Shown here one piece after another: positions 2,166-21,284 of a stretch of DNA of 26,536 bases. Numbering within the stretch: the stretch's first letter is position 1; each line of letters begins with the position of its first letter. The position numbers and the translations under genes are program-made. Location: the IMG/VR virus record IMGVR_UViG_3300045611_000155, positions 1-26,536 of that record. One strand, given 5' to 3'. Under the pieces are notes generated by a model. It saw only the letters and a program-made list of their open reading frames with translations. It was not told where the DNA came from and did not search any database. This DNA is from a virus.

Positions 2166-2537
2166 CTAAATTTTTGTTATTTGCTCTACTTCTATTTTAT
2201 TATTACAATGCGGGCATAGAATACCGCTCTTAACATAAATCCAATTCTTGTTAGTAGAGCGAATGTGCAAACGAGCATGCTCAGAGCGCCCCTTGAACAA
2301 TTCAAGATTCTCTATTCTGTTATCTTGGCGATTTCCGTTTTTATGATGCACGTACTCATCCTTACAAAGAGGACGCCCAAGATGTTCTGACATAACATAT
2401 CTATGCTCTAATACATAACCTCTTCCGTTAGCATTAGGATGTCCATGCATACGAAGACGGATATATTGGTCTCCTCGTACTGAACGAGTAACTTCTTTAA
2501 AACGCCGAAGTTGCCCCTTGCTCATATTCTGTTTCAT
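2166..2537 (-). CDS. HNH homing-type endonuclease
   Basis: The protein carries a clear HNH signature: [20 protein letters not shown] at about residues 61-80, with His64-His65, Asn67 and Asn77, followed by a conserved EHARLH, and a C-terminal CPHC pair near residues 108-111. Upstream [18 protein letters not shown] is typical of free-standing phage HNH nucleases of this class. I choose ATG 2537, which has GGAA at good spacing; longer frames from 2609 lack a ribosome site and would overlap the methyltransferase end. It lies just after the second glycosyltransferase/methyltransferase pair and looks like an inserted selfish gene. Confidence 0.85.
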
Positions 2538-2571
2538 AATTTCCGTTCTTACATAGACACCTATAGGCATA

Positions 2572-3396
2572 TTAAAAGTAACGACGCTGACAAATAATAT
2601 GAAGGTCAAACCAACTCATGAACTTGCTCGAAATATTACGTCTTTTCATGATTATATTGAATCCTAATCTTTCGAGTTCCCGGCACAATGCGCGCTCTGA
2701 CCAGAGGATGTAGTGCTCTTTCCCCTTAAGATGCGGCCAACCGCGTACAGTATGCTTGTAAATAAAGTCAGTGTCGGGTGTACTAATGAACAATACGCCA
2801 TCCGGAGACAGTAGATCATAGGCCTTATTAAGAGCAGCCAAAGGATCAGGCAAATGCTCCAGGACATGACCCATCCAGATAAGATCAAACTTACGGTCAA
2901 TTTTTTCCAAGCCGGTAGCCTGCTGAATGGAATCACCTGAGAGAGAAAAATCATAGGTCAGAAAGTCTCCTTTATAAATGTTACCCTTGCCAGTTAGTGT
3001 TGGGTTAACGTCTATGGCCCAGGTAAGCCAACCTCGCTCTTCCATGGACTGGAGGATGAATGGAACGCAGAACCCTACTTCCAACATCATACGGCCATAA
3101 GTCAACTCCTCTATTAACGGAGCGTAGAGTCGGAGTAAGTAGTTGTACCGCTCTCTGGCCTGTTTTCCCTCCGCTAACTGGGCAACATACTTCTCATCAT
3201 AGATCTCTTTGCCGACCGGAAACTCGCTCTGGAACACCACGCCGCACTGGCAGAAGTACCAGACGGAGGTATCGTTCGTCTTACTATCCTGGATCGCTTC
3301 CGCCACGACAGTCTGAACGTTACAAATGGGACAGAACTGGGGCGTGATCTTTACTTGCTTTGGCTCTTGTTCCGATAACACTTTTGATTCGGTCAT
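2572..3396 (-). CDS. Zinc-finger class I SAM methyltransferase (second of two paralogs)
   Basis: The start is ATG 3396, with GGAAAGG five bases upstream; the longer frame from 3441 has no such site. An N-terminal CPICN and a later CQC suggest a zinc knuckle. The SAM-binding core follows: [13 protein letters not shown] (motif I region), AIDVNP (acidic end of strand 2), [17 protein letters not shown] (motif IV/post-I) and GVLFISTPD. The C-terminal stretch [20 protein letters not shown], then KRRNIS, matches the paralog at 4324-5064 almost position by position. The zinc-plus-Methyltransf_23 layout is known among sugar and small-molecule methyltransferases, so a sugar substrate delivered by the adjacent GT9 enzyme is plausible. 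It overlaps that gene by 77 bases. Confidence 0.8.
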
Positions 3397-4327
3397 ATAA
3401 CCTTTCCGGTTTAATCCCCTCGGCCATACACCAGGCCGCATGAGTTACAAACTCAATCGGGCATTGTATACTGTGGTCATAAATAAGTCTAAAGCATGGC
3501 GCACAGGCGCACTCTGCTTCCAACGAGTAATCATTCAGGAAATGCTTTGTGATGTTAGTCCTCGTGGTATGCCCAAGAACCCCAATTTTCGGCGTTGGGT
3601 AGCATCCGCTCGCGTGTAATACGCCGGTGTCGGGAGAAATCACTAAATCTACGAGGCTCGTCAGCGCCATCGCGGTTCTCGCGGGAATTCTTCCGCTTAA
3701 GTTCAAGATGTTTTCGTCGGTTATACTTTCTAACAATTGACATTTTTCATCTCCCGTAGTTATAAACCTGACGTTATTAAAATTCTTCAATACCTCTCCC
3801 ATCACAAAATCCGCCCAGGGATAGACCTTCTGGTGGCCAGAGCCTGAGAGCTGCCAGAGTATATTGATCTTATCGGGGATAATATGTTTCTTCGCTTCCT
3901 CCACTTCGAAAGGAGTAAAGTAGAGTTCGGGAAGCTTCTGGCAACCCTCAAGCCCAGCCCACTTTTCCGTGGCTTCATAATAATTTACGTTAAAAAGATC
4001 GAACCTTTCCTTCTTCGTGTAGTTATACGCCGGCTGGAAAGGATGGGCGACTGTGTTACACTCCAGAGACTCTGAGAAATTGATAAACTTGTCCGGATTT
4101 ATTTCTTTCTTGATTTTTTCCCAGTGCTCCGGAAGATCATCGATTGACATTTTTTCATCATGTTCGATAAACTCGTCCACGTTCGGGTTGTTCTCGAGAA
4201 CTTCCTTTCCTCTTTTATTAGTGTTAAGAATGACATGGTACCCTAACTCCTTTAAACGTTTTAACACTGGAGTTATGATAATCATATCTCCATAAGCCCC
4301 GTACCGAATAACTAGCGCTTTCTTCAT
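3320..4327 (-). CDS. Glycosyltransferase family 9 (heptosyltransferase-like), second of two paralogs
   Basis: The start is ATG 4327, overlapping the upstream TGA as ATGA. The N-terminus KKALVIRYGAYGDMIIITPV is the GT9 signature of ADP-heptose:LPS heptosyltransferases (R-x-G-A-x-G-D loop). The second Rossmann-like domain shows WQLSGSGHQKVYPWADFV and later the donor-site block LVISPDTGVLHASGCYPTPK. A Cys cluster (CACAPCF) lies near the C-terminus. Size (335 aa) is normal for GT9. GT9 enzymes transfer sugars from nucleotide donors to LPS core. In a late phage operon the acceptor could be a virion protein or host LPS; that choice is open. It forms a unit with the methyltransferase at 2572-3396. 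Confidence 0.85.
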   Translation of the reverse strand: MKKALVIRYGAYGDMIIITPVLKRLKELGYHVILNTNKRGKEVLENNPNVDEFIEHDEKMSIDDLPEHWEKIKKEINPDKFINFSESLECNTVAHPFQPAYNYTKKERFDLFNVNYYEATEKWAGLEGCQKLPELYFTPFEVEEAKKHIIPDKINILWQLSGSGHQKVYPWADFVMGEVLKNFNNVRFITTGDEKCQLLESITDENILNLSGRIPARTAMALTSLVDLVISPDTGVLHASGCYPTPKIGVLGHTTRTNITKHFLNDYSLEAECACAPCFRLIYDHSIQCPIEFVTHAAWCMAEGIKPERLYDRIKSVIGTRAKASKDHAPVLSHL

Positions 4328-5064
4328 TTTTGGAAAATCAGGTGATAATCTCCTGTACAAACAAAATCTGGATCTATGTTACGTTTATGGTAAACTTTCT
4401 TAAATCCCAGATTTTCTAACTTCTCAATAAAACTATCCATATCCCAAAGGATATGATGTTCTCTCAATACCCAATGCTGCCACTGATGCGGATGTTCCCA
4501 GTTGATAAACCAGGGGTCTGGCATAGCCACAAATAATAATCCCTTTTCATTCAAAGAGTTATATAGATTACTTGCTACAGTCAATGGATCTTTAAAATGC
4601 TCAAAGATATGGGATGCCCAAATAACATCATAACCACGCAAGTGAATTGCCTCTTCTACGTTCCAGTTAATTATGCTATGTTGTTCTGACTTTACATTAG
4701 GGTTAATATCAATCCCGATTGTTCCCCAGCCCTCTTTCTTGGCTTCATCTAATAACACCTGATTGATAGAACCAATCTCGCCAAAGACCTTTATGTTACT
4801 ATTGAACTCCTTAAGCATAGGGAAGTAGCGGGAATACCTTCTTATAGCCTCAGTAATAACTTCCTGTTGGTAATGCTTCTGGTAATTCTCGTCATAGATC
4901 CGCTGGTCTATATTCACCCAGTCTGTATAGAATATGTTAGAGCAATTACAGAAAGAATACCCCCTATCTAATACAGGCATAGCCATCTTGAAGTTCTCTG
5001 GATTTCTTACCAGGCCCTGAACATAGATAGGATTAACCCTACCACAAACAGGGCACTCTTGCAT
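4324..5064 (-). CDS. Zinc-finger class I SAM methyltransferase (first of two paralogs)
   Basis: I place the start at ATG 5064, eight bases after the upstream stop, so the protein opens with MQECPVCGRV; a longer frame from 5112 would overlap the upstream gene by 41 bases. CPVCG and a later CNC look like a zinc knuckle. The SAM fold shows GEIGSINQVLL (a degenerate motif I), IGIDINPN, DVIWASHIFEHFKDPL and KGLLFVAMPDP. The C-terminal block REHHILWDMDSFIEKLENLG, then KRNIDPDF, parallels its paralog at 2572-3396. The glycine-rich loop is less canonical than usual, so activity is not certain. It sits between two GT9 genes and probably acts on the same sugar or acceptor. Confidence 0.78.
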   Translation of the reverse strand: MQECPVCGRVNPIYVQGLVRNPENFKMAMPVLDRGYSFCNCSNIFYTDWVNIDQRIYDENYQKHYQQEVITEAIRRYSRYFPMLKEFNSNIKVFGEIGSINQVLLDEAKKEGWGTIGIDINPNVKSEQHSIINWNVEEAIHLRGYDVIWASHIFEHFKDPLTVASNLYNSLNEKGLLFVAMPDPWFINWEHPHQWQHWVLREHHILWDMDSFIEKLENLGFKKVYHKRNIDPDFVCTGDYHLIFQK

Positions 5065-5071
5065 TATCCTA

Positions 5072-6070
5072 TCAGGATATTTGAGCAGGCTCTTTCCGCA
5101 CTGAGTAGTCATAAGCTTTCTCCACTTGCTTCATAACTAAATCTACATCAAAGAATACACATAAAGGATATCCGTCCTTGACCGGGCATCCTATAAATTT
5201 ATATTGCGCTTTGCAACACGGCGAACAAGGTGCAGGACTTTGCAAGCTGTAATCATTGGGGCAATCGTCCGGGTGATTGACCAAACTTGCACAGGTCATC
5301 ATCTGTATTGTCGGAACACCCCACATATTAGCCCCTACGCCGAAACCACTCTCCATAGTAATTACTAACTTAGAGTATTTGGCCATCAGTAAAGCCTGTC
5401 TGAATGGCATAACACCTATAATACTTTTAATCCTTGGAGAGGAAGGAATATCTAAACCATCAGAGTTCTTATCCCCGGTAAGTATAATATCCGCCTCAGG
5501 ATACTTTTTTAATATCCGCTTGATTAACTCCGGGGCGATAACCATTCTCTTGTTTAATGTCGTGCCGTTTAAGTTAATCATTATCGGGTCATGGAGTTTC
5601 GCCATATACTCCTGGGCTATAACATGCTCTTCCAACGGATAAAAAATCTCCCCTCTGTATCTACCAACTAACTCAGGATAACCGGCAGCGATTGCGCTTT
5701 GGTCATAGTAGTTTATATTGGCTAAGGCATCCCGGTTCTTTTGGTGCATAAAGTAGAGGTTAGAGGATTCTGGAGCGATTAAAGAAACTTCTATGCTGTT
5801 GAATAGATTTACAAACTTATCATATCCCTCTGAAATGATCTCCCAGTGTTTCTGGATTACAAAAGGATTAGAATAAACATTAATGCGATTTGTCGGCTCA
5901 AAGAATATCAAGTTGTCAATGAACGGATTGTAACCTAAGAGCTGGTACCCCTTGTAATTCGTTTCTACATCTACTACATTAAAACCTTGTTCCTTAAGGA
6001 GACGAGGAAGGTGCGACATGTGGATAATGTCACCATAAGCGCCATATCTTGATATCAACACCTTCCTCAT
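5072..6070 (-). CDS. Glycosyltransferase family 9 (heptosyltransferase-like), first of two paralogs
   Basis: The start is ATG 6070 with AGGAG six bases upstream; an in-frame TTG immediately before it is less likely. The N-terminus MRKVLISRYGAYGDIIHMSH repeats the GT9 loop seen in the gene at 3320-4327. The C-terminal half carries LVITMESGFGVGANMWGVPT, the usual GT9 donor-binding region, and a Cys-rich tail (PCSPCC, then FIGCPVKDGYPLC). At 332 aa it is full length. The two GT9 proteins share layout but have diverged, so the duplication is not recent. It begins the two-pair cassette directly after the gene that follows the capsid gene, which ties expression to late virion assembly. Confidence 0.85.
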   Translation of the reverse strand: MRKVLISRYGAYGDIIHMSHLPRLLKEQGFNVVDVETNYKGYQLLGYNPFIDNLIFFEPTNRINVYSNPFVIQKHWEIISEGYDKFVNLFNSIEVSLIAPESSNLYFMHQKNRDALANINYYDQSAIAAGYPELVGRYRGEIFYPLEEHVIAQEYMAKLHDPIMINLNGTTLNKRMVIAPELIKRILKKYPEADIILTGDKNSDGLDIPSSPRIKSIIGVMPFRQALLMAKYSKLVITMESGFGVGANMWGVPTIQMMTCASLVNHPDDCPNDYSLQSPAPCSPCCKAQYKFIGCPVKDGYPLCVFFDVDLVMKQVEKAYDYSVRKEPAQIS

Positions 6071-6080
6071 CAATTACTCC

Positions 6081-6503
6081 TTATCCATTCTCATTACCGA
6101 CCACGAATGTTTCGCGGATCTGTAAGACAGGACAAACTACTGCTACCGTTGCTCCAGTACCTTCTAACTGAATGACGACATCATCACCAGCGGCGAAGGC
6201 AGTCTCAGTGCAAGCACCATCTACAACAGTGTCCACGGTGTTAGTTCCGATCGTGATAGTACCGATTAAGGAAACAGCACCGGTCCCGGCTAAGGATTTA
6301 CCAAGCAGAACGTTTCTGCTCGTTCCGTTGCCAGCAGTTGTAACCATTACCTCCCAATCAGTCACAATGACCGGAGCCATAAAAGTATAAACCTGGTCAG
6401 TTGCGGCTGCAGCAGTACCGTTAAGTGCTGCTGTGTTCAGAAGTGTAACCTCTTTCTTCGACCCAAAGGTGGGGTCAGAGTATGTTCTTGAAGTATTACC
6501 CAT
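6081..6503 (-). CDS. Probable head decoration or head-accessory protein, 140 aa
   Basis: This small protein lies ten bases after the major capsid gene, with AAGGAGGGCGAT before its ATG. It is Thr/Val/Ala/Gly-rich and strongly beta in pattern (AAATDQVYTFMAPVIVTDWE, SLIGTITIGTNTVDTVVDG). There is one Trp and no long helix. Small beta proteins immediately downstream of a phage capsid gene are often capsid decoration proteins or head-fibre bases. No known family is recognised, so the role rests on position and composition. Confidence 0.72.
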   Translation of the reverse strand: MGNTSRTYSDPTFGSKKEVTLLNTAALNGTAAAATDQVYTFMAPVIVTDWEVMVTTAGNGTSRNVLLGKSLAGTGAVSLIGTITIGTNTVDTVVDGACTETAFAAGDDVVIQLEGTGATVAVVCPVLQIRETFVVGNENG

Positions 6504-6513
6504 ATCGCCCTCC

Positions 6514-7443
6514 TTAGAGTGAAGTCAGGTGAATGATTCTCGTTTCCGAGTCGTTGGTAAAATCCCAAGTGAGCTTGAATCCACCGAGATAGTACCAGGC
6601 GATGGCCTGATCTCTTCCAAAGTCTTTCGGAAGGTCAATGCGGATGTCTTCCGGAATCACGATACCTTCACGCACGGCATCGCCACCGAAGAACACGGCT
6701 TCACCATCAATACTACCAGATCCTAAGGTGTTCTTTAGGATGTTGGTTTCCTCGACAAAACGGCAGCCATAATACTGTCCGACTTCACCGTTGTACAAAG
6801 GCTTCAGCGTGGTCTGAGAAGCTTTTGCCTCGAAGAAGTCATAAAGACCCCTAATCGAGTTGGTGGAGGCGATACAGATATAGTTATTGCCATCGTATCT
6901 CGGAACATTCAACGTCTTCAGTTTGTCAATGACATCTCTTACGTTCTTGTCTGACATCGAACCAGACGAAGTCGCGGAGGCTGTTCCTGACGTGCTGAAA
7001 GTCGTTGTTGCCGTATTCACGACCGCGGCCTTGTAGACGCAAGTCTTGAATTCGGCTGCTGCTGCACTGTCCAAAACCTTAGCCATGTCATTCCTTAATA
7101 CTGTTTTCACAATATCAGGAACGGTAACATCAGCTAAAGACTGGACCTTTAAGGTGTACGGAATGGCGTTGCCATACTCGTTCACGGTCAAGGTCGACTG
7201 GACAATGGTGTAATTCCTCTTCGGAATGGTACTCGTTTCGGATAATGTACCGCCAGCGGTAGAGATATTGCTGATCTTGTTAAAGAACACTTTATCTCCA
7301 CGATTCTTGCCGGCTGCTGCTTCGGCGTTGACGAATTGCCTAAACTTCATCAACGGCTGTGCGGCATGACGAATCTGCTTGCTTAATACATTATTTGAAA
7401 GATAGCCACCGAGCGAGGATACTGCCCATAGTTGCTGTGACAT
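6514..7443 (-). CDS. Major capsid protein, N4-gp56 family type
   Basis: The 309-residue protein has features I associate with the N4-gp56/HK97-fold capsid family: an N-terminal arm with MKFRQFVNAEAAAGKNRGDK, the E-loop-like ISTAGGTLSETSTIPKRNYT, the block VNEYGNAIPYTLKVQSLADV and helices VPDIVKTVLRNDMAKVLDSA. The C-terminal half contains GNNYICIASTNSIRGLYDF and YYGCRFVEETNIL, typical of the P-domain. It follows a scaffold-like gene with a one-base overlap of stop and start and has GAGGG in front. Together with the portal and terminase upstream this fixes the head module. Confidence 0.88.
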   Translation of the reverse strand: MSQQLWAVSSLGGYLSNNVLSKQIRHAAQPLMKFRQFVNAEAAAGKNRGDKVFFNKISNISTAGGTLSETSTIPKRNYTIVQSTLTVNEYGNAIPYTLKVQSLADVTVPDIVKTVLRNDMAKVLDSAAAAEFKTCVYKAAVVNTATTTFSTSGTASATSSGSMSDKNVRDVIDKLKTLNVPRYDGNNYICIASTNSIRGLYDFFEAKASQTTLKPLYNGEVGQYYGCRFVEETNILKNTLGSGSIDGEAVFFGGDAVREGIVIPEDIRIDLPKDFGRDQAIAWYYLGGFKLTWDFTNDSETRIIHLTSL

Positions 7444-15750: not shown

Positions 15751-16275
15751 CTACCCCTCCTTTGTTAGGTTGGTTAGTATGTCTTTCAATAAATTTTTTG
15801 TAAGCCAAACAAATGATAAGAATATGGCATCCTTATCTTTTTCATCTTGAGGAAGTTTTTCATAAGGAACCATATCGGGGTGTGTTTTTGCAACAACATC
15901 TCTTGTTGTTCCATATTTCCAGCCCATTCTAATATAGGCATCCATCCAACTATTGTGTGCTTCTTCGGGAGTTGGTAATTTATCAATTGATAAATAATCC
16001 GTAATAATTTTACTGAATTGTTTTTTGAACTTTTCGTCTCGTTCTTCCCACTTTTCTGGAACAATGGAACGATTAGACCACTCCGCTTCTATACGAGTTG
16101 CTTCATAAAGTGATTGTGTTATCTTCTCCTTCGGCACGACCTCTTCCTTGAACCATTGGAGGATGGCTTTTTTGGCTTCATTAATAGAGCATAATTCTAT
16201 GTAATCTCCTACATTACCCATATTCCCTCTTTGTGCATTTGCTAACCCCTCCAACACTTCCATTAGTTTAGTCAT
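15751..16275 (-). CDS. RyR-domain protein, 174 aa
   Basis: I choose ATG 16275: GGAG lies six bases upstream and the ATG overlaps the TGA of the small gene before it. The frame extends to 16308, but that start has no ribosome site. The C-terminal third carries a RyR (ryanodine receptor) repeat-like domain: EEAHNSWMDAYIRMGWKYG, then KTHPDMVPYEKLPQDEKDKD, with the conserved W, GWxYG, HPxxVPYxxL and the acidic end. RyR domains occur in bacterial and phage proteins without calcium channels and may bind nucleotides or small ligands. The N-terminal 90 residues are helical and unrecognised. No transmembrane segment is seen, so a cytoplasmic role is likely. Confidence 0.8.
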   Translation of the reverse strand: MTKLMEVLEGLANAQRGNMGNVGDYIELCSINEAKKAILQWFKEEVVPKEKITQSLYEATRIEAEWSNRSIVPEKWEERDEKFKKQFSKIITDYLSIDKLPTPEEAHNSWMDAYIRMGWKYGTTRDVVAKTHPDMVPYEKLPQDEKDKDAIFLSFVWLTKNLLKDILTNLTKEG

Positions 16276-16373
16276 TTGGACTCCTTGAGTTTCCTTGCTC
16301 TCAACCATTGCTTGTAGGGTTTTTCTGATTTCTTTATTGATAACCTATGCCTTCCTTTTGAGCGACTTCCCAT
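16272..16373 (-). CDS. Very small basic protein, 33 aa
   Basis: ATG 16373-16371 is preceded by AAAAGGAGGGGAG, and TGA 16274-16272 overlaps the next start as ATGA. The sequence is MGSRSKGRHRLSIKKSEKPY, then KQWLRARKLKESK. Nearly half the residues are Lys, Arg or His, fitting RNA or DNA binding. Strong ribosome site and tight coupling argue that it is translated. It may also serve mainly to couple the RyR-domain gene. Confidence 0.6.
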   Translation of the reverse strand: MGSRSKGRHRLSIKKSEKPYKQWLRARKLKESK

Positions 16374-16466: not shown

Positions 16467-16931
16467 TTATATTATTATTTCCTTATTTTTATATCCTCGG
16501 CGATAATAAACACAGCCCATCTGAAATCCAAACTGGGGAAATTCTTTCGGTGTGTCTAAACAAAGTATCTCCTTTATCCCAAATCCCGAATCCTTAATAT
16601 CCCGTAATCGTGCCCTATAAAAAGTAGCATTAACGAGTTGTAAAAATACTATGTTATCTGCTACTGACATTGACTTTTTTAAGAAATCCCTATATTTTGA
16701 ATAAGGTGGGTTAGTTATTACCCAATCCCAATGTCCTTCTATAGTAAGAAAATCTCTTCCTTTGTCTATCTCACACCAATCAGCCTGCATAACCTTAAGA
16801 AAATTCCCGCTACCACAACAAGGTTCTAAAATTCTACCCGACGGCTTGAAATGTTCTACTATCTGTTTACATAAATAAACAGGTGTCATCACTCTGTCAT
16901 TACCATTTTTACTTGCAATTGCTCTACCCAT
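16467..16931 (-). CDS. DNA methyltransferase (NPPY type), 154 aa
   Basis: The protein has SAM motif I RILEPCCGSGNFL at residues 33-45 and catalytic motif IV WVITNPPYSKY at 70-80, the NPPY form of N6-adenine or N4-cytosine DNA methyltransferases. It is short and lacks an obvious target-recognition domain, so specificity may be low or supplied by loops. MTPVYLCKQIVEHFKPSGRI resembles the start of Dam- or EcoRI-like enzymes of phages. AAGGAGGGCAGA precedes the ATG, 17 bases after the tRNA. It likely methylates phage DNA against host restriction. Confidence 0.82.
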   Translation of the reverse strand: MGRAIASKNGNDRVMTPVYLCKQIVEHFKPSGRILEPCCGSGNFLKVMQADWCEIDKGRDFLTIEGHWDWVITNPPYSKYRDFLKKSMSVADNIVFLQLVNATFYRARLRDIKDSGFGIKEILCLDTPKEFPQFGFQMGCVYYRRGYKNKEIII

Positions 16932-16948: not shown

Positions 16949-17020
16949 TGGGGCTGTAAGGACTTGAACCTTAACCTGTGGTTCTACAGACCAGCGTGCT
17001 GCCGCTAACACTTCAGCCCC
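16949..17020 (-). tRNA. tRNA with probable anticodon GUA (Tyr-like)
   Basis: On the minus strand a 72-base cloverleaf can be drawn. The acceptor is GGGGCTG/CAGCCCC with discriminator A. The D-arm is GTGT/GCAC with an 8-base loop containing GG, the anticodon loop is CTGTAGA, and the T-arm is TAAGG-TTCAAGT-CCTTA. The anticodon stem has four good pairs plus a C-C mismatch at the top, and position 37 is G. The loop gives GUA, which reads Tyr codons. The variable loop is only about four bases, whereas bacterial tRNA-Tyr normally has a long one, so the identity is less certain than the fold. CCA is not encoded. Confidence 0.75.
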
Positions 17021-17927: not shown

Positions 17928-18335
17928 CTAACCCCCCTTTAGTTCTTCTAAAACCTTTAACTTGGTTTGTAAGTCAGATATAATCTGTTCTAATTCTATG
18001 ATAGTGAATTTATGTGTCTTTTCCGCCCGAACCCTTAACTCTGCTATCGTAGCCTCGCCATACTCTGCGATAAGCCTTTCTGCGTAGACTCCAAGATTGC
18101 CGGATAAAAACTTGTTACACCTTACACACTGACAATGTATATTTATTGGGTCAAAATCAAGGCAGTCTTCATGTATGTAATGACCGGCGTTCTGCTCTTT
18201 CCAGTGCTTTCTTGCCCCGCAGGTAAAACAGATACCCTTCTCCGACCTTCTGACAAGTTCAGAGTGGAGTTTCCAAGCCTTCTTGCGGAGTGCCGTAGTG
18301 GATTTATGCTTAATCTTCTTAATCTTCTTGCTCAA
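17928..18335 (-). CDS. ninG: NinG-like recombination protein
   Basis: The 135-residue protein matches the lambda NinG/Rap family: a basic N-terminus, CFTCG at residues 36-40, NAGHYIHEDCLDFDPINIHC around 49-68, CVRCNKFLSG, and GVYAERLIAEYGE. Lambda Rap is a structure-specific nuclease that resolves recombination intermediates and aids RecA-independent exchange. The HNH-like zinc fold is retained here. The start is TTG 18335, with AGGAGAG upstream, and it overlaps the MT-A70 gene stop as TTGA. It belongs with the RecT/exonuclease set upstream. Confidence 0.85.
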   Translation of the reverse strand: MSKKIKKIKHKSTTALRKKAWKLHSELVRRSEKGICFTCGARKHWKEQNAGHYIHEDCLDFDPINIHCQCVRCNKFLSGNLGVYAERLIAEYGEATIAELRVRAEKTHKFTIIELEQIISDLQTKLKVLEELKGG

Positions 18336-18880
18336 GACTTCTCTCCTAAATTAATATCGCTCTCTACTTCGTTTCCCCAGACATCCCAGCCTTCGGTCTT
18401 CTGGCGGGCAAAGAGTTCTATACGAGGCAGATCGCCCATCAGTTCTACAATACGATTTCTTGTGTCAGCGGGTTTTTGAGAGTGTCTTTCTACTGGTGTA
18501 TCAATAACACTATGCACGCCTGCAGATATTCTTTTAGGATTTCCCTTGGTTGCCAATAAACAAAGTTCGGCATTTGCCCTTGTCCAATATCCCATACCCC
18601 AAAACCAAGAAGATGACTTTTTGTTCCTCTTAACCCAAGTAAAAGCCACAGTCTTAAATTGAAATCCCCAAGCCTCAATAACCTCCAATGCTTCTTTTAT
18701 CGTTGGCATAGTAGTCCAAAGAAATAATATACAATTTTTCTCAGTAGGAATACAAAGATTTTTAATATCTTCTAAGTTCATTCGTTTATAGTGTAGTGGT
18801 CTAATTTTGGAATAGTTTTTTTCTGACCATACCTTAAATTTCCACGGCGGGTCGGCATAGATTATCTGGTATTTTTTCAT
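18332..18880 (-). CDS. MT-A70-like N6-adenine methyltransferase
   Basis: The protein starts MKKYQIIYADPPWKFKVW, with the DPPW catalytic motif at residues 10-13. It continues with the MT-A70 pattern: NCILFLWTTMPTIKEALEVI, GFQFKTVAFTWVKRNKK, FWGMGYWTRANAELCLLATK, HSVIDTPVERHSQKPAD and RIELFARQKTEGWDVWGNE. Length (182 aa) is normal for phage MT-A70 enzymes such as phage-type DNA adenine methyltransferases. It likely modifies phage DNA. The ATG lies after AAGGGGTAGCTTGTT, a leader whose 14 bases recur exactly at 17425-17438. Confidence 0.92.
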   Translation of the reverse strand: MKKYQIIYADPPWKFKVWSEKNYSKIRPLHYKRMNLEDIKNLCIPTEKNCILFLWTTMPTIKEALEVIEAWGFQFKTVAFTWVKRNKKSSSWFWGMGYWTRANAELCLLATKGNPKRISAGVHSVIDTPVERHSQKPADTRNRIVELMGDLPRIELFARQKTEGWDVWGNEVESDINLGEKS

Positions 18881-19037: not shown

Positions 19038-19285
19038 ATTCCTACTACCTGGGCATCGAAGATATTGATGCAACTGAGCACGTTTTGGGGTAGGAGGTCC
19101 TGGGATACTAGTTCCTTCACGATCGCCCCTCTACGGGCCTCTGGAAGCGAATTCCAGGCCCTTTTTTTGGCACTATCGGCCAAAGCCAGCAATTTGCGCT
19201 GTTTGGCCGGCAATTCCTCCCTGGCTGCCCAAACCCGGTTGGCCAGCCATTCCTTATAAATCTGTATAAAGTCCAACTCTTCCAC
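19034..19285 (-). CDS. Hypothetical helical protein, 83 aa
   Basis: The start is GTG 19285 after AGGAAGGAGGATCTT, and the first 32 bases overlap the replication gene's end. The protein is helical and charged (FIQIYKEWLANRVWAAREEL, KQRKLLALADSAKKRAWNSL), ending in LSCINIFDAQVVGI. No family is recognised. Coupling to the primase-helicase upstream and the membrane protein downstream suggests co-expression with replication. Confidence 0.7.
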   Translation of the reverse strand: MEELDFIQIYKEWLANRVWAAREELPAKQRKLLALADSAKKRAWNSLPEARRGAIVKELVSQDLLPQNVLSCINIFDAQVVGI

Positions 19286-21284
19286 AAGATCCTCCTTCCT
19301 GAATTAATTGAATGCCTTGCCAGATGCGGTCACCATGATCGCCCCGGGCATTCTTGTCAAGGTTAAAATGTTTTACAAGCTGCATGCCGAATTTCTTCTT
19401 GCTGAGAGCCAGCATTCCGCTGGCTTTGCACCAGTCGCGGTATACTTCATAAAGGGTGTCTTTCGCAATTATCCCCGTGGCATCTATATGGCATTTTTCC
19501 TCCACAAAACTGAGCACGGAGTTGTTTTCTTTCCGGTATTCTTCCGTTTCCTGTTCGATACTTTCGCCAGGGTCAAAGTAGCCGCGCTGTTTCAGGCGCT
19601 GGTAGCCGGCCAGCATCCAGAGGAAGATGCCATTGAGCTCCGGGAGCAGCTTGCTACGCAATTCGCGGTCCTGCTCAATGTCAGTAAACTGCCTAGTCAG
19701 GCGCAGCGTGATTAGGCGCTTATAAAATGCATCGGTTTTATCATTGACCTGGGGCATATTATTCAATGCAAAAATCATTTTGCAGAAGGGATGAAACTTG
19801 AATGGGTGACCGTACTTACGGTCGGCCGTTACTGTATCCCCGGACACAATGGCCTTGAATTTAGCATCATAAATAGAGGTTTTGGCGTTGGTTTCGATGC
19901 TAATGTTGGTGAGTTTGCCGTAGATTTCGGAGACATAGTTAGGCTTAATCAGATCCTCCAGGGTAACTGCGCTATAATTCGCATGGCCCAGGACATTTTC
20001 AAGGGCAAATAGCAGGGTTGATTTACCATTGCGCCCTTCGCCCAGCATAAACAAAGCCTTCTCATATTTAGTCTCCCGGGTCAGGCATAAGCCAAAAAAC
20101 TCCTGAAGCACAGAAATGTACTGGTTTCTTTCTTCCGCAGATTTATCCCCGAACACCCCCTTCAGAGTATTCAGCCAAACGGGGCAATCGGCATCCGGAA
20201 GGTATTCTACCGGGAGCTGGATGGTCGAGTAATATTGAGGATCATGAGGGAGTATCTCTTTTGTATCTATATTAAACATCCCATTTTTGAGGTTTAATAG
20301 AGGAAAACTATTCATTTTATCTACTTTAAGATAAGCCTTACGCTTCAGGGCAGCCGTGACTTCTGTGACCTTGAAGATGGTGGCGGCCGCCCCTAACTTA
20401 TCCCCTATCAACTTTTTGATGTAAAACCCATCCACTTCCTGGTAGCATGAGCCGTCATACTCATAACTCAGATCCCCGGGGAACACCAGCTTATGCTCTG
20501 TCAGAATATTATCCGCTATCACATTGCAATTAAAACTATCCTTGCCGACAGGCTTGACCGCCTTGGAGTATCTTCCGCTGCTGCGGGCAATGGCCAATAC
20601 CTCCCGCTTGGGGAGGGGCGGGCGGCAGCGTTTTTTGTTGAATTGCAGGAGGTGCTCTTCGATTTGTTCTACCTCACAGCCGGCGCTGCGCATCTTCCCG
20701 GCGATGCTTATGAGGGTGGAGTTGCGCTTGCCGGCAGTGATTGGGGCTTCATCTTCCGATACATCCACAACAGGTTTCTCCACAATCATATCCAGCAACC
20801 ACTCCGGCGCCTCGGCCATCTCTTCGGGATTGGAAAGCTCCCAGGCATACGCCTTCTCATTTATCACAGACGGCGGCGCAATCACATATCCGCCGTCCCC
20901 GCGGATATCTATCCCCGGCCGGATCCCGGTGCGGCAACCCACCCCCTGGGCTGGGTACTTGAAAAATAAATGGCGGCCTCCGCTCCAGGTGATGGATTCT
21001 ATGGTATGTGGCAGCGGTTCATATCTCTCGATTAGCTCCACCAACGATTCATCGCCATGGGCGCCGTTCTTCGTGTCTATATCGACCACAAAGAAATTGG
21101 TGTCCTTTCCGGTGCAGAGGCCTATATTTGCATTAGGATATTTAGAGAAAAGTGTTTCAACTATAGTTATATCGTTGGAGGCATCTTTATATCCCTGAGA
21201 TGTAAGAGGTACTTTCCCATTAGATGCGCATGGGAAAACTTTCCATCCACGTTTTGCATAATCTATTGCGTATTCTTTAAACAT
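19254..21284 (-). CDS. Prim-Pol primase fused to SF3 helicase (replication protein)
   Basis: The 676-residue protein has two parts. Residues 1-170 are an archaeo-eukaryotic primase-type Prim-Pol domain: VVDIDTKNG with Asp68/Asp70, SGGRHLFFKY with His105, and GIDIRGDGGYVIAPPS with Asp126. A PriCT-like linker (KRCRPPLPKREVLAIARSSG) follows at about 218-238. The C-terminal half is a D5-type SF3 helicase: Walker A GEGRNGKST at 415-423, then IETNAKTSI, KMIFALNNMPQV and YKRLITLRL. It should synthesise primers and unwind DNA at the fork. ATG 21284 has GGAAAGAG upstream. No phage DNA polymerase is visible, so host polymerase, or the Prim-Pol itself, may do synthesis. Confidence 0.93.
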   Translation of the reverse strand: MFKEYAIDYAKRGWKVFPCASNGKVPLTSQGYKDASNDITIVETLFSKYPNANIGLCTGKDTNFFVVDIDTKNGAHGDESLVELIERYEPLPHTIESITWSGGRHLFFKYPAQGVGCRTGIRPGIDIRGDGGYVIAPPSVINEKAYAWELSNPEEMAEAPEWLLDMIVEKPVVDVSEDEAPITAGKRNSTLISIAGKMRSAGCEVEQIEEHLLQFNKKRCRPPLPKREVLAIARSSGRYSKAVKPVGKDSFNCNVIADNILTEHKLVFPGDLSYEYDGSCYQEVDGFYIKKLIGDKLGAAATIFKVTEVTAALKRKAYLKVDKMNSFPLLNLKNGMFNIDTKEILPHDPQYYSTIQLPVEYLPDADCPVWLNTLKGVFGDKSAEERNQYISVLQEFFGLCLTRETKYEKALFMLGEGRNGKSTLLFALENVLGHANYSAVTLEDLIKPNYVSEIYGKLTNISIETNAKTSIYDAKFKAIVSGDTVTADRKYGHPFKFHPFCKMIFALNNMPQVNDKTDAFYKRLITLRLTRQFTDIEQDRELRSKLLPELNGIFLWMLAGYQRLKQRGYFDPGESIEQETEEYRKENNSVLSFVEEKCHIDATGIIAKDTLYEVYRDWCKASGMLALSKKKFGMQLVKHFNLDKNARGDHGDRIWQGIQLIQEGGSCGRVGLYTDL

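Follow-up and report, generated by a model that had tools for sequence, protein, structure and literature searches.

Glycosylation of phage virions has been shown in few cases so far. In the mycobacteriophages Che8, Corndog and Myrna, phage-encoded glycosyltransferases (GTs) go together with demonstrated glycans on capsid and tail-tube proteins (Freeman et al. 2023, as summarized in PMC12363180 and PMC11256854). In the chlorovirus PBCV-1, a eukaryotic virus with a known capsid glycan structure, the protein A064R joins two rhamnosyltransferase domains to a methyltransferase (MT; PMC7019647). The GT-B heptosyltransferase TibC glycosylates proteins and carries an iron finger, with Thr226, Lys230, Arg286 and Trp305 among its residues (PMC4358343). 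Here we analyze the IMG/VR virus record IMGVR_UViG_3300045611_000155 (26.5 kb; this whole stretch is called the window), whose head operon, on the minus strand, contains a cassette of two GT9-type glycosyltransferases, GTb and GTa, each with a methyltransferase-like partner, MTb and MTa, directly behind a putative decoration protein, DEC. On balance we think it probable that this is a phage virion-glycosylation island in which GTb, with MTb, modifies DEC, GTa and MTa form a core pair, and both MT-like partners derive from sugar methyltransferases. The genes concerned are:

6514..7443, minus strand: major capsid protein (MCP); phrog_1357 major head protein, E 1.6e-17, and a weak Phage_capsid match
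6081..6503, minus strand: DEC, putative decoration/cement protein of type I and proposed glycan acceptor; assigned from its fold model and its place after MCP
5072..6070, minus strand: GTb, GT9-type GT-B glycosyltransferase linked to DEC; assigned from the GT9 fold of its model and conserved residues
4324..5112, minus strand: MTb, zinc-knuckle class-I methyltransferase-like partner of GTb; Methyltransf_23, 57 bits, and family alignment
3320..4327, minus strand: GTa, GT9 glycosyltransferase and conserved core member; PF01075, 38 bits, and an alignment of 16
2572..3396, minus strand: MTa, zinc-knuckle class-I methyltransferase-like partner of GTa; Methyltransf_23, 74 bits
1148..1579, minus strand: g1148, small beta-rich protein, the last member of the island in many relatives; found in 23 island loci

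Relatives were collected by scans with a GT alignment, the MCP and an MCP alignment, which gave 111 loci on viral contigs and 17 on bacterial-genome contigs, some contigs being found twice; gene calls were mechanical, the contigs are fragmentary and redundancy was removed by hand. A scan of viral contigs with GTb as a single protein returned no relatives; the profile search succeeded. The gene tables follow a common plan: MCP, DEC, a variable island, GTa, MTa, often g1148, and then tail genes. A first-pass annotation of the window, which knew of no such layout in any described phage system, was right for the collections searched, but the survey of related contigs that it proposed found the layout in more than 30 undescribed metagenomic contigs. 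The four-gene form of the window itself recurs in L003, L004, L005/L006, L007 and L063; L010 has it too, enlarged by one small gene.

The evidence that carries our proposal is the tie between DEC and the first GT of the island. DEC is a 140-residue beta-sandwich protein between MCP and GTb (AlphaFold2 model, pLDDT 83.5, 8-9 strands), and in DEC proteins a common N-terminal tail, Y-S-D-P-x-Y-G, precedes an all-beta body. DEC of type I is followed by GTb in 33 of 34 tree-set rows, the contig of the 34th (L089) ending before GTb; in all 13 cases of types II and IV the next GT is of GT4 type; and the DEC of L037, a third kind, is paired with a Maf-like protein. No mismatch between DEC type and first GT was observed. 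Placed on the MCP tree, these labels change 11 times (10 without long rows), at least 8 of the changes falling on well-supported (starred) branches, and independent pairs are concordant in 8/8 cases (sign test, p 0.008). The MCPs of L036 and L037, 97% and 96% identical to that of the window, accompany different DEC types and first GTs. Within types, partial Mantel tests give 0.68 for DEC and GTb given MCP (n=33, p 0.001) and 0.62 for DEC and MTb given MCP; the values for DEC and MCP given GTb (0.03) and for DEC and GTa given MCP (-0.03) are not significant. The pattern is replicated with unrelated enzymes, where type II DEC and GT4 given MCP yield 0.82 (n=10, p 0.0005) and DEC and MCP given GT4 yield a non-significant -0.08. 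In L037 (11335-13754), the third island type consists of a fusion of an MptE/Maf-like protein with a methyltransferase and a SPASM radical-SAM gene, behind the third kind of DEC.

Such a tie could be linkage only, with DEC standing at the edge of an island moved by hot-spot recombination and the enzymes acting elsewhere in the virion or the cell. DEC and the GT do adjoin, and the islands are clearly mobile. However, adjacency alone fails to explain the pattern because MCP, about 10-20 bp from DEC and thus equally near, is decoupled from it. The tie also holds across a C-methyltransferase gene of about 1.2 kb that stands between DEC and GTb in 8 of the 22 loci of the test set for DEC and MCP given GTb, and two unrelated GT families lead to the same result. 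We consider linkage alone unlikely.

The islands vary in content around their fixed place. Larger ones add GT2 enzymes, PF08421/PF08484 C-methyltransferases, GT4/GT1 enzymes, a UDPG-dehydrogenase-like/hexapeptide protein, and genes for B12-radical SAM, MptE/Maf-like and RMNT_CmcI rhamnosyl O-methyltransferase proteins. In more distant phages, an MT-GT9 fusion of 505-590 residues takes the place of the separate genes at the same site, and the fused form is also found in (pro)phage contigs in metagenome-assembled genomes (MAGs) of Magnetococcales, Geobacteraceae and others, and in Pseudothauera. GT9 scores of at least 150 bits, the phage type, were found on phage-type contigs or in the fused form; ordinary cellular GT9 proteins score at most about 56 bits. 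This gap and the conserved place in the operon rule out a random insertion of host genes outside the structural operon, the outcome that the first-pass annotation had named as fatal to its reading. Among isolated phages, MTb has no match, GTa matches two distant Campylobacter phage proteins at 23%, and the fused protein matches only the methyltransferase domain of a Microcystis phage; the isolated phages with a related MCP that were examined (Xuquatrovirus PTXU04 and Vibrio podovirus 219E41.1) have no annotated island genes downstream of MCP. In the literature searched, which does not include subscription papers, no GT9 island located behind the capsid genes of a phage is described.

GTa and GTb are 29% identical over 301 residues (BLASTP, E 3e-35), far beyond chance. 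GTa exceeds the gathering score of Glyco_transf_9 (PF01075; 38.1 bits, cut-off 22), whereas no Pfam family matches GTb at E<0.01 and GTb was assigned through its predicted structure, so that the GT9 profile check proposed earlier succeeded for one copy only. The GTb model (pLDDT 89, 332 residues, beginning straight with a Rossmann strand) has GT9 enzymes as its nearest folds (3tov, E 2.6e-14; 1psw, WaaF, E 6.7e-12; WaaC, E 4.3e-11), followed by TibC. Conserved in GTb are D14, T170-x3-K174, R224, E240-S-G, W250 and Cys282/285/295/304; GTa keeps the canonical heptosyltransferase motifs D14, S163-x3-K167 and D233-T-G-x-x-H238 (alignment of 16). The spacing of the cysteines, C-x2-C-x10-C-x10-C in GTa and C-x2-C-x9-C-x8-C in GTb, resembles the four-Cys iron finger of TibC, and such a cluster is present in 37/39 GTa, 34/35 GTb and 17/40 fused proteins, and in 3/26 of the cellular GT9 proteins sampled. 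A tree of 86 rows sets GTa, GTb, the fused form and cellular GT9 each apart from the rest by a single branch. The two copies had been described as a tandem duplication, which does not hold if a recent event is meant: with 28-29% identity between copies, and with the orthologues of GTa and those of GTb falling into clades of their own throughout the lineage, they are ancient paralogues. GTa and MTa co-vary with each other and with the portal, that is, with the vertical backbone. The small protein g1148 was considered as acceptor of GTa and rejected, as the two do not co-diverge. Synthesis of ADP-heptose by the phage was likewise rejected: a GmhA-type SIS_2 match was absent from 13 related virus records and an epimerase was present in one only, weak evidence given that the records are fragments; the donor sugar is on these grounds presumably supplied by the host.

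GT9 enzymes typically act on lipopolysaccharide (LPS), GTa has the canonical heptosyltransferase motifs, and the distant fused proteins lie in (pro)phage contigs of Gram-negative MAGs. The cassette could thus act on the host surface by remodelling its LPS or capsule glycan, in the manner of seroconversion or superinfection exclusion, its position next to DEC being incidental. The first-pass annotation had left the choice between this and glycan decoration of the capsid open. Since GTb is tied to a putative decoration protein with which the first GT co-switches and co-diverges, virion glycosylation is favoured; moreover, the genes lie within the late structural operon in relatives and no flippase or polymerase partner is found among the annotated genes. 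We judge host-surface remodelling to be decidedly unlikely. Phages glucosylate modified bases with GT-B enzymes, but action of these GTs and MTs on phage DNA bases is very improbable, given that the window proteins scanned include no modified-base synthesis gene, that the nearest folds are GT9 heptosyltransferases, and that the GTs are linked to a capsid-surface-like protein and change family with DEC type.

The degeneration of motif I for S-adenosylmethionine (SAM) in the METHYLTRANSFERASE-like partners MTa and MTb was unexpected. The two proteins are related far beyond chance (28% identity; BLASTP, E 9e-35), and both match Methyltransf_23 (cut-off 27 bits), as had been anticipated, and not Methyltransf_14. 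An intact SAM-binding motif I (DxGxG) occurs in 5/33 MTa and 2/34 MTb proteins, against 31/40 fused MT-GT9 proteins (looser pattern); a stricter pattern finds it in 15/28 cellular Methyltransf_23 frames, a rough tally with some of the 28 frames wrong, against 8/67 phage frames. In 15 of the 34 MTb homologues the motif is wholly gone: the Rossmann core lacks its N-terminal half or is missing entirely, in which case 145-176 residues remain. These proteins still have the invariant C-P-x-C...F-C-N-C knuckle, and the W-x-M-D-S...G-F end persists. Where the context of core-lost loci is visible, 10/14 have a Methyltransf_24-type domain fused or a Methyltransf_24/CmcI-type gene directly behind; an extra methyltransferase stands at that place in 4/16 core-kept loci (Fisher p 0.026, not corrected for kinship). 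In L038 (8892-9872) and L045 (7599-8579), the core-less knuckle module of MTb is fused to a Methyltransf_24-type domain, identified by Pfam in the first and by similarity in the second. The pattern reads as selection retaining the knuckle and the C-terminal end while catalysis is lost or replaced. Since the acidic residue after strand 2 is present in both window proteins, they may still bind SAM; methylation by them appears doubtful.

We propose that GTb, with MTb, is the cognate glycosyltransferase of DEC and would, when the late genes are expressed, transfer sugar from a nucleotide sugar of the host to side chains of DEC. What the data show directly are the identities of the genes, their conserved order, the joint switching and divergence of DEC and the adjacent GT, and the decay of the SAM site; DEC as the acceptor, the donor, the linkage and the role of the knuckle are what we infer. 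GTa with MTa would be a core pair kept across the lineage that acts on another virion protein or extends the first glycan. MTb and MTa would descend from zinc-ribbon sugar methyltransferases, the retained knuckle and C-terminus probably positioning the GT or the acceptor, with methyl transfer weakened in the window copies and, in relatives, often taken over by a substitute methyltransferase.

Several observations count against this proposal. DEC was named a putative decoration protein from its position, its size and weak fold matches, of which the best are phage fibre domains and another the trimeric cement protein of phage KHP40 (E 2.4e-3). DEC adjoins the GT, so functionless co-transfer is possible, although the equally near MCP was not co-transferred. 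The co-divergence tests were devised once the pattern was visible, the GT4 set serving as the replicate. GTb lacks the donor motif D-T-G-x-x-H of GTa and mostly has E-[ST]-G (E-S-G in the window), with no H there. GTa tracks the portal protein (partial correlation 0.62 given MCP) and not g1148. Motif I is degenerate in both window MTs (EVGFCVP in MTa, EIGSINQ in MTb); of the paired sugar-adding and sugar-methylating system proposed earlier, the pairing of GT9-type enzymes with MT-like proteins at a conserved operon place stands, while the methylating activity is doubtful. Finally, the lineage is uncultured, with no isolated phage, and glycans on its virions are a prediction from the genes.

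More tentatively, it is possible that the lineage exchanges decoration protein, cognate glycosyltransferase and knuckle adaptor as a unit, the sugar coat of the capsid switching like a serotype, and that its methyltransferases have become zinc-knuckle adaptors that have shed their catalytic domain or had it replaced (by a fused or adjacent Methyltransf_24 or a rhamnosyl O-methyltransferase). An uncultured lineage widespread in metagenomes has the island as a near-constant part of its head operon, and the repeated joint switches of DEC and GT are a natural experiment that points to a specific enzyme-acceptor pair. If the proposal is correct, the island would offer compact protein-glycosylation tools, a reason for variation of phage capsid surfaces, and a clear case of methyltransferases losing the SAM site while another part is kept.

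All four cassette genes were confirmed as open reading frames (ORFs) on one strand where the first-pass annotation had placed them, and every motif that it listed was confirmed: RYGAYGD and the Cys cluster near the C-terminus in the GTs, and the CPxC knuckle, HxILW and K-R-(R)-N-I in the MTs. The start of MTb was moved from 5064 to 5112, which is more likely because homologues have the additional N-terminal residues, and MTb then overlaps GTb; MTa and GTa overlap by 77 bp. GTb begins 10 bp past the DEC stop (6081), as the ten-base distance given earlier implied. This spacing and the common strand suggest late co-expression of the cassette; a promoter/terminator scan was uninformative, with counts near those of shuffles. 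Immediately downstream of MTa come an HNH endonuclease, which overlaps the MTa 3' end and is probably a homing endonuclease inside the structural operon, and then small beta-rich genes, among which g1148 has a weak FecR-like match below cut-off. In two relatives the MCP gene is in two ORFs (L002, 3417-4954; L087, 9036-10660) with about 570-620 bp between, possibly an intron or an insertion; an intron search against Rfam gave no match. Other features of the window are:

13211-11853, minus strand: terminase, head operon
11862-9778, minus strand: portal, head operon
8396-7443, minus strand: 317-residue ORF with no family match, in the usual scaffold position
2166..2609, minus strand: HNH endonuclease after MTa, outside the cassette; HNH_3, E 1.9e-10, phrog_20891, E 9e-20
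15751-16308, minus strand: RyR-domain protein (PF02026, E 2e-11)
16467-16931, minus strand: short N6-methylase-like ORF, weak match
16949-17020, minus strand: tRNA gene lying apart from the structural genes (Rfam RF00005, 54 bits)
18332-18880, minus strand: MT-A70 DNA methylase, E 2e-26
19254-21284, minus strand: Prim-Pol/D5-type primase-helicase, a probable replication protein

Compared with known systems, the island resembles mycobacteriophage virion glycosylation, as far as the summaries cited above describe it, in that phage-encoded GTs are proposed to modify capsid-surface proteins; it differs in that the cassette lies in the late operon directly behind DEC, in that its first GTs are of GT9 or GT4 type and switch with DEC, and in being a genomic finding only. 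TibC and BAHT enzymes share with our GTs the GT-B fold of a protein glycosyltransferase, a four-Cys cluster in the C-terminal part, an Asp base and an S/T-x3-K pattern, and the S/T-x3-K spacing, R and W of GTb recall Thr226, Lys230, Arg286 and Trp305 of TibC (a comparison of patterns, not a superposition). However, the N-terminal beta-barrel domain (about 97 residues) is absent and identity is about 10%; because it has no such barrel, the modelled GTb is not a BAHT. TibC/BAHT enzymes work as a dodecamer on an autotransporter, whereas the acceptor proposed for GTb is a phage protein. With the LPS heptosyltransferases WaaC and WaaF (GT9) the GTs share the fold and, in GTa, the motifs G-x-x-G-D and D-T-G-x-x-H, but they form a phage clade apart from the sampled cellular GT9, with a Cys cluster and a structural-operon context. 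Zinc-ribbon sugar methyltransferases (Methyltransf_13/23/14) have an N-terminal Cys knuckle and a class-I MT fold like MTa and MTb, and Methyltransf_13/14 occur in the islands of relatives; the window copies differ in their degenerate SAM motif I and the missing Methyltransf_14 match. The likeness to A064R lies in the joint provision, by a virus, of GT and methyltransferase functions for a capsid glycan, for which the fused MT-GT9 proteins of the distant relatives may also be compared.

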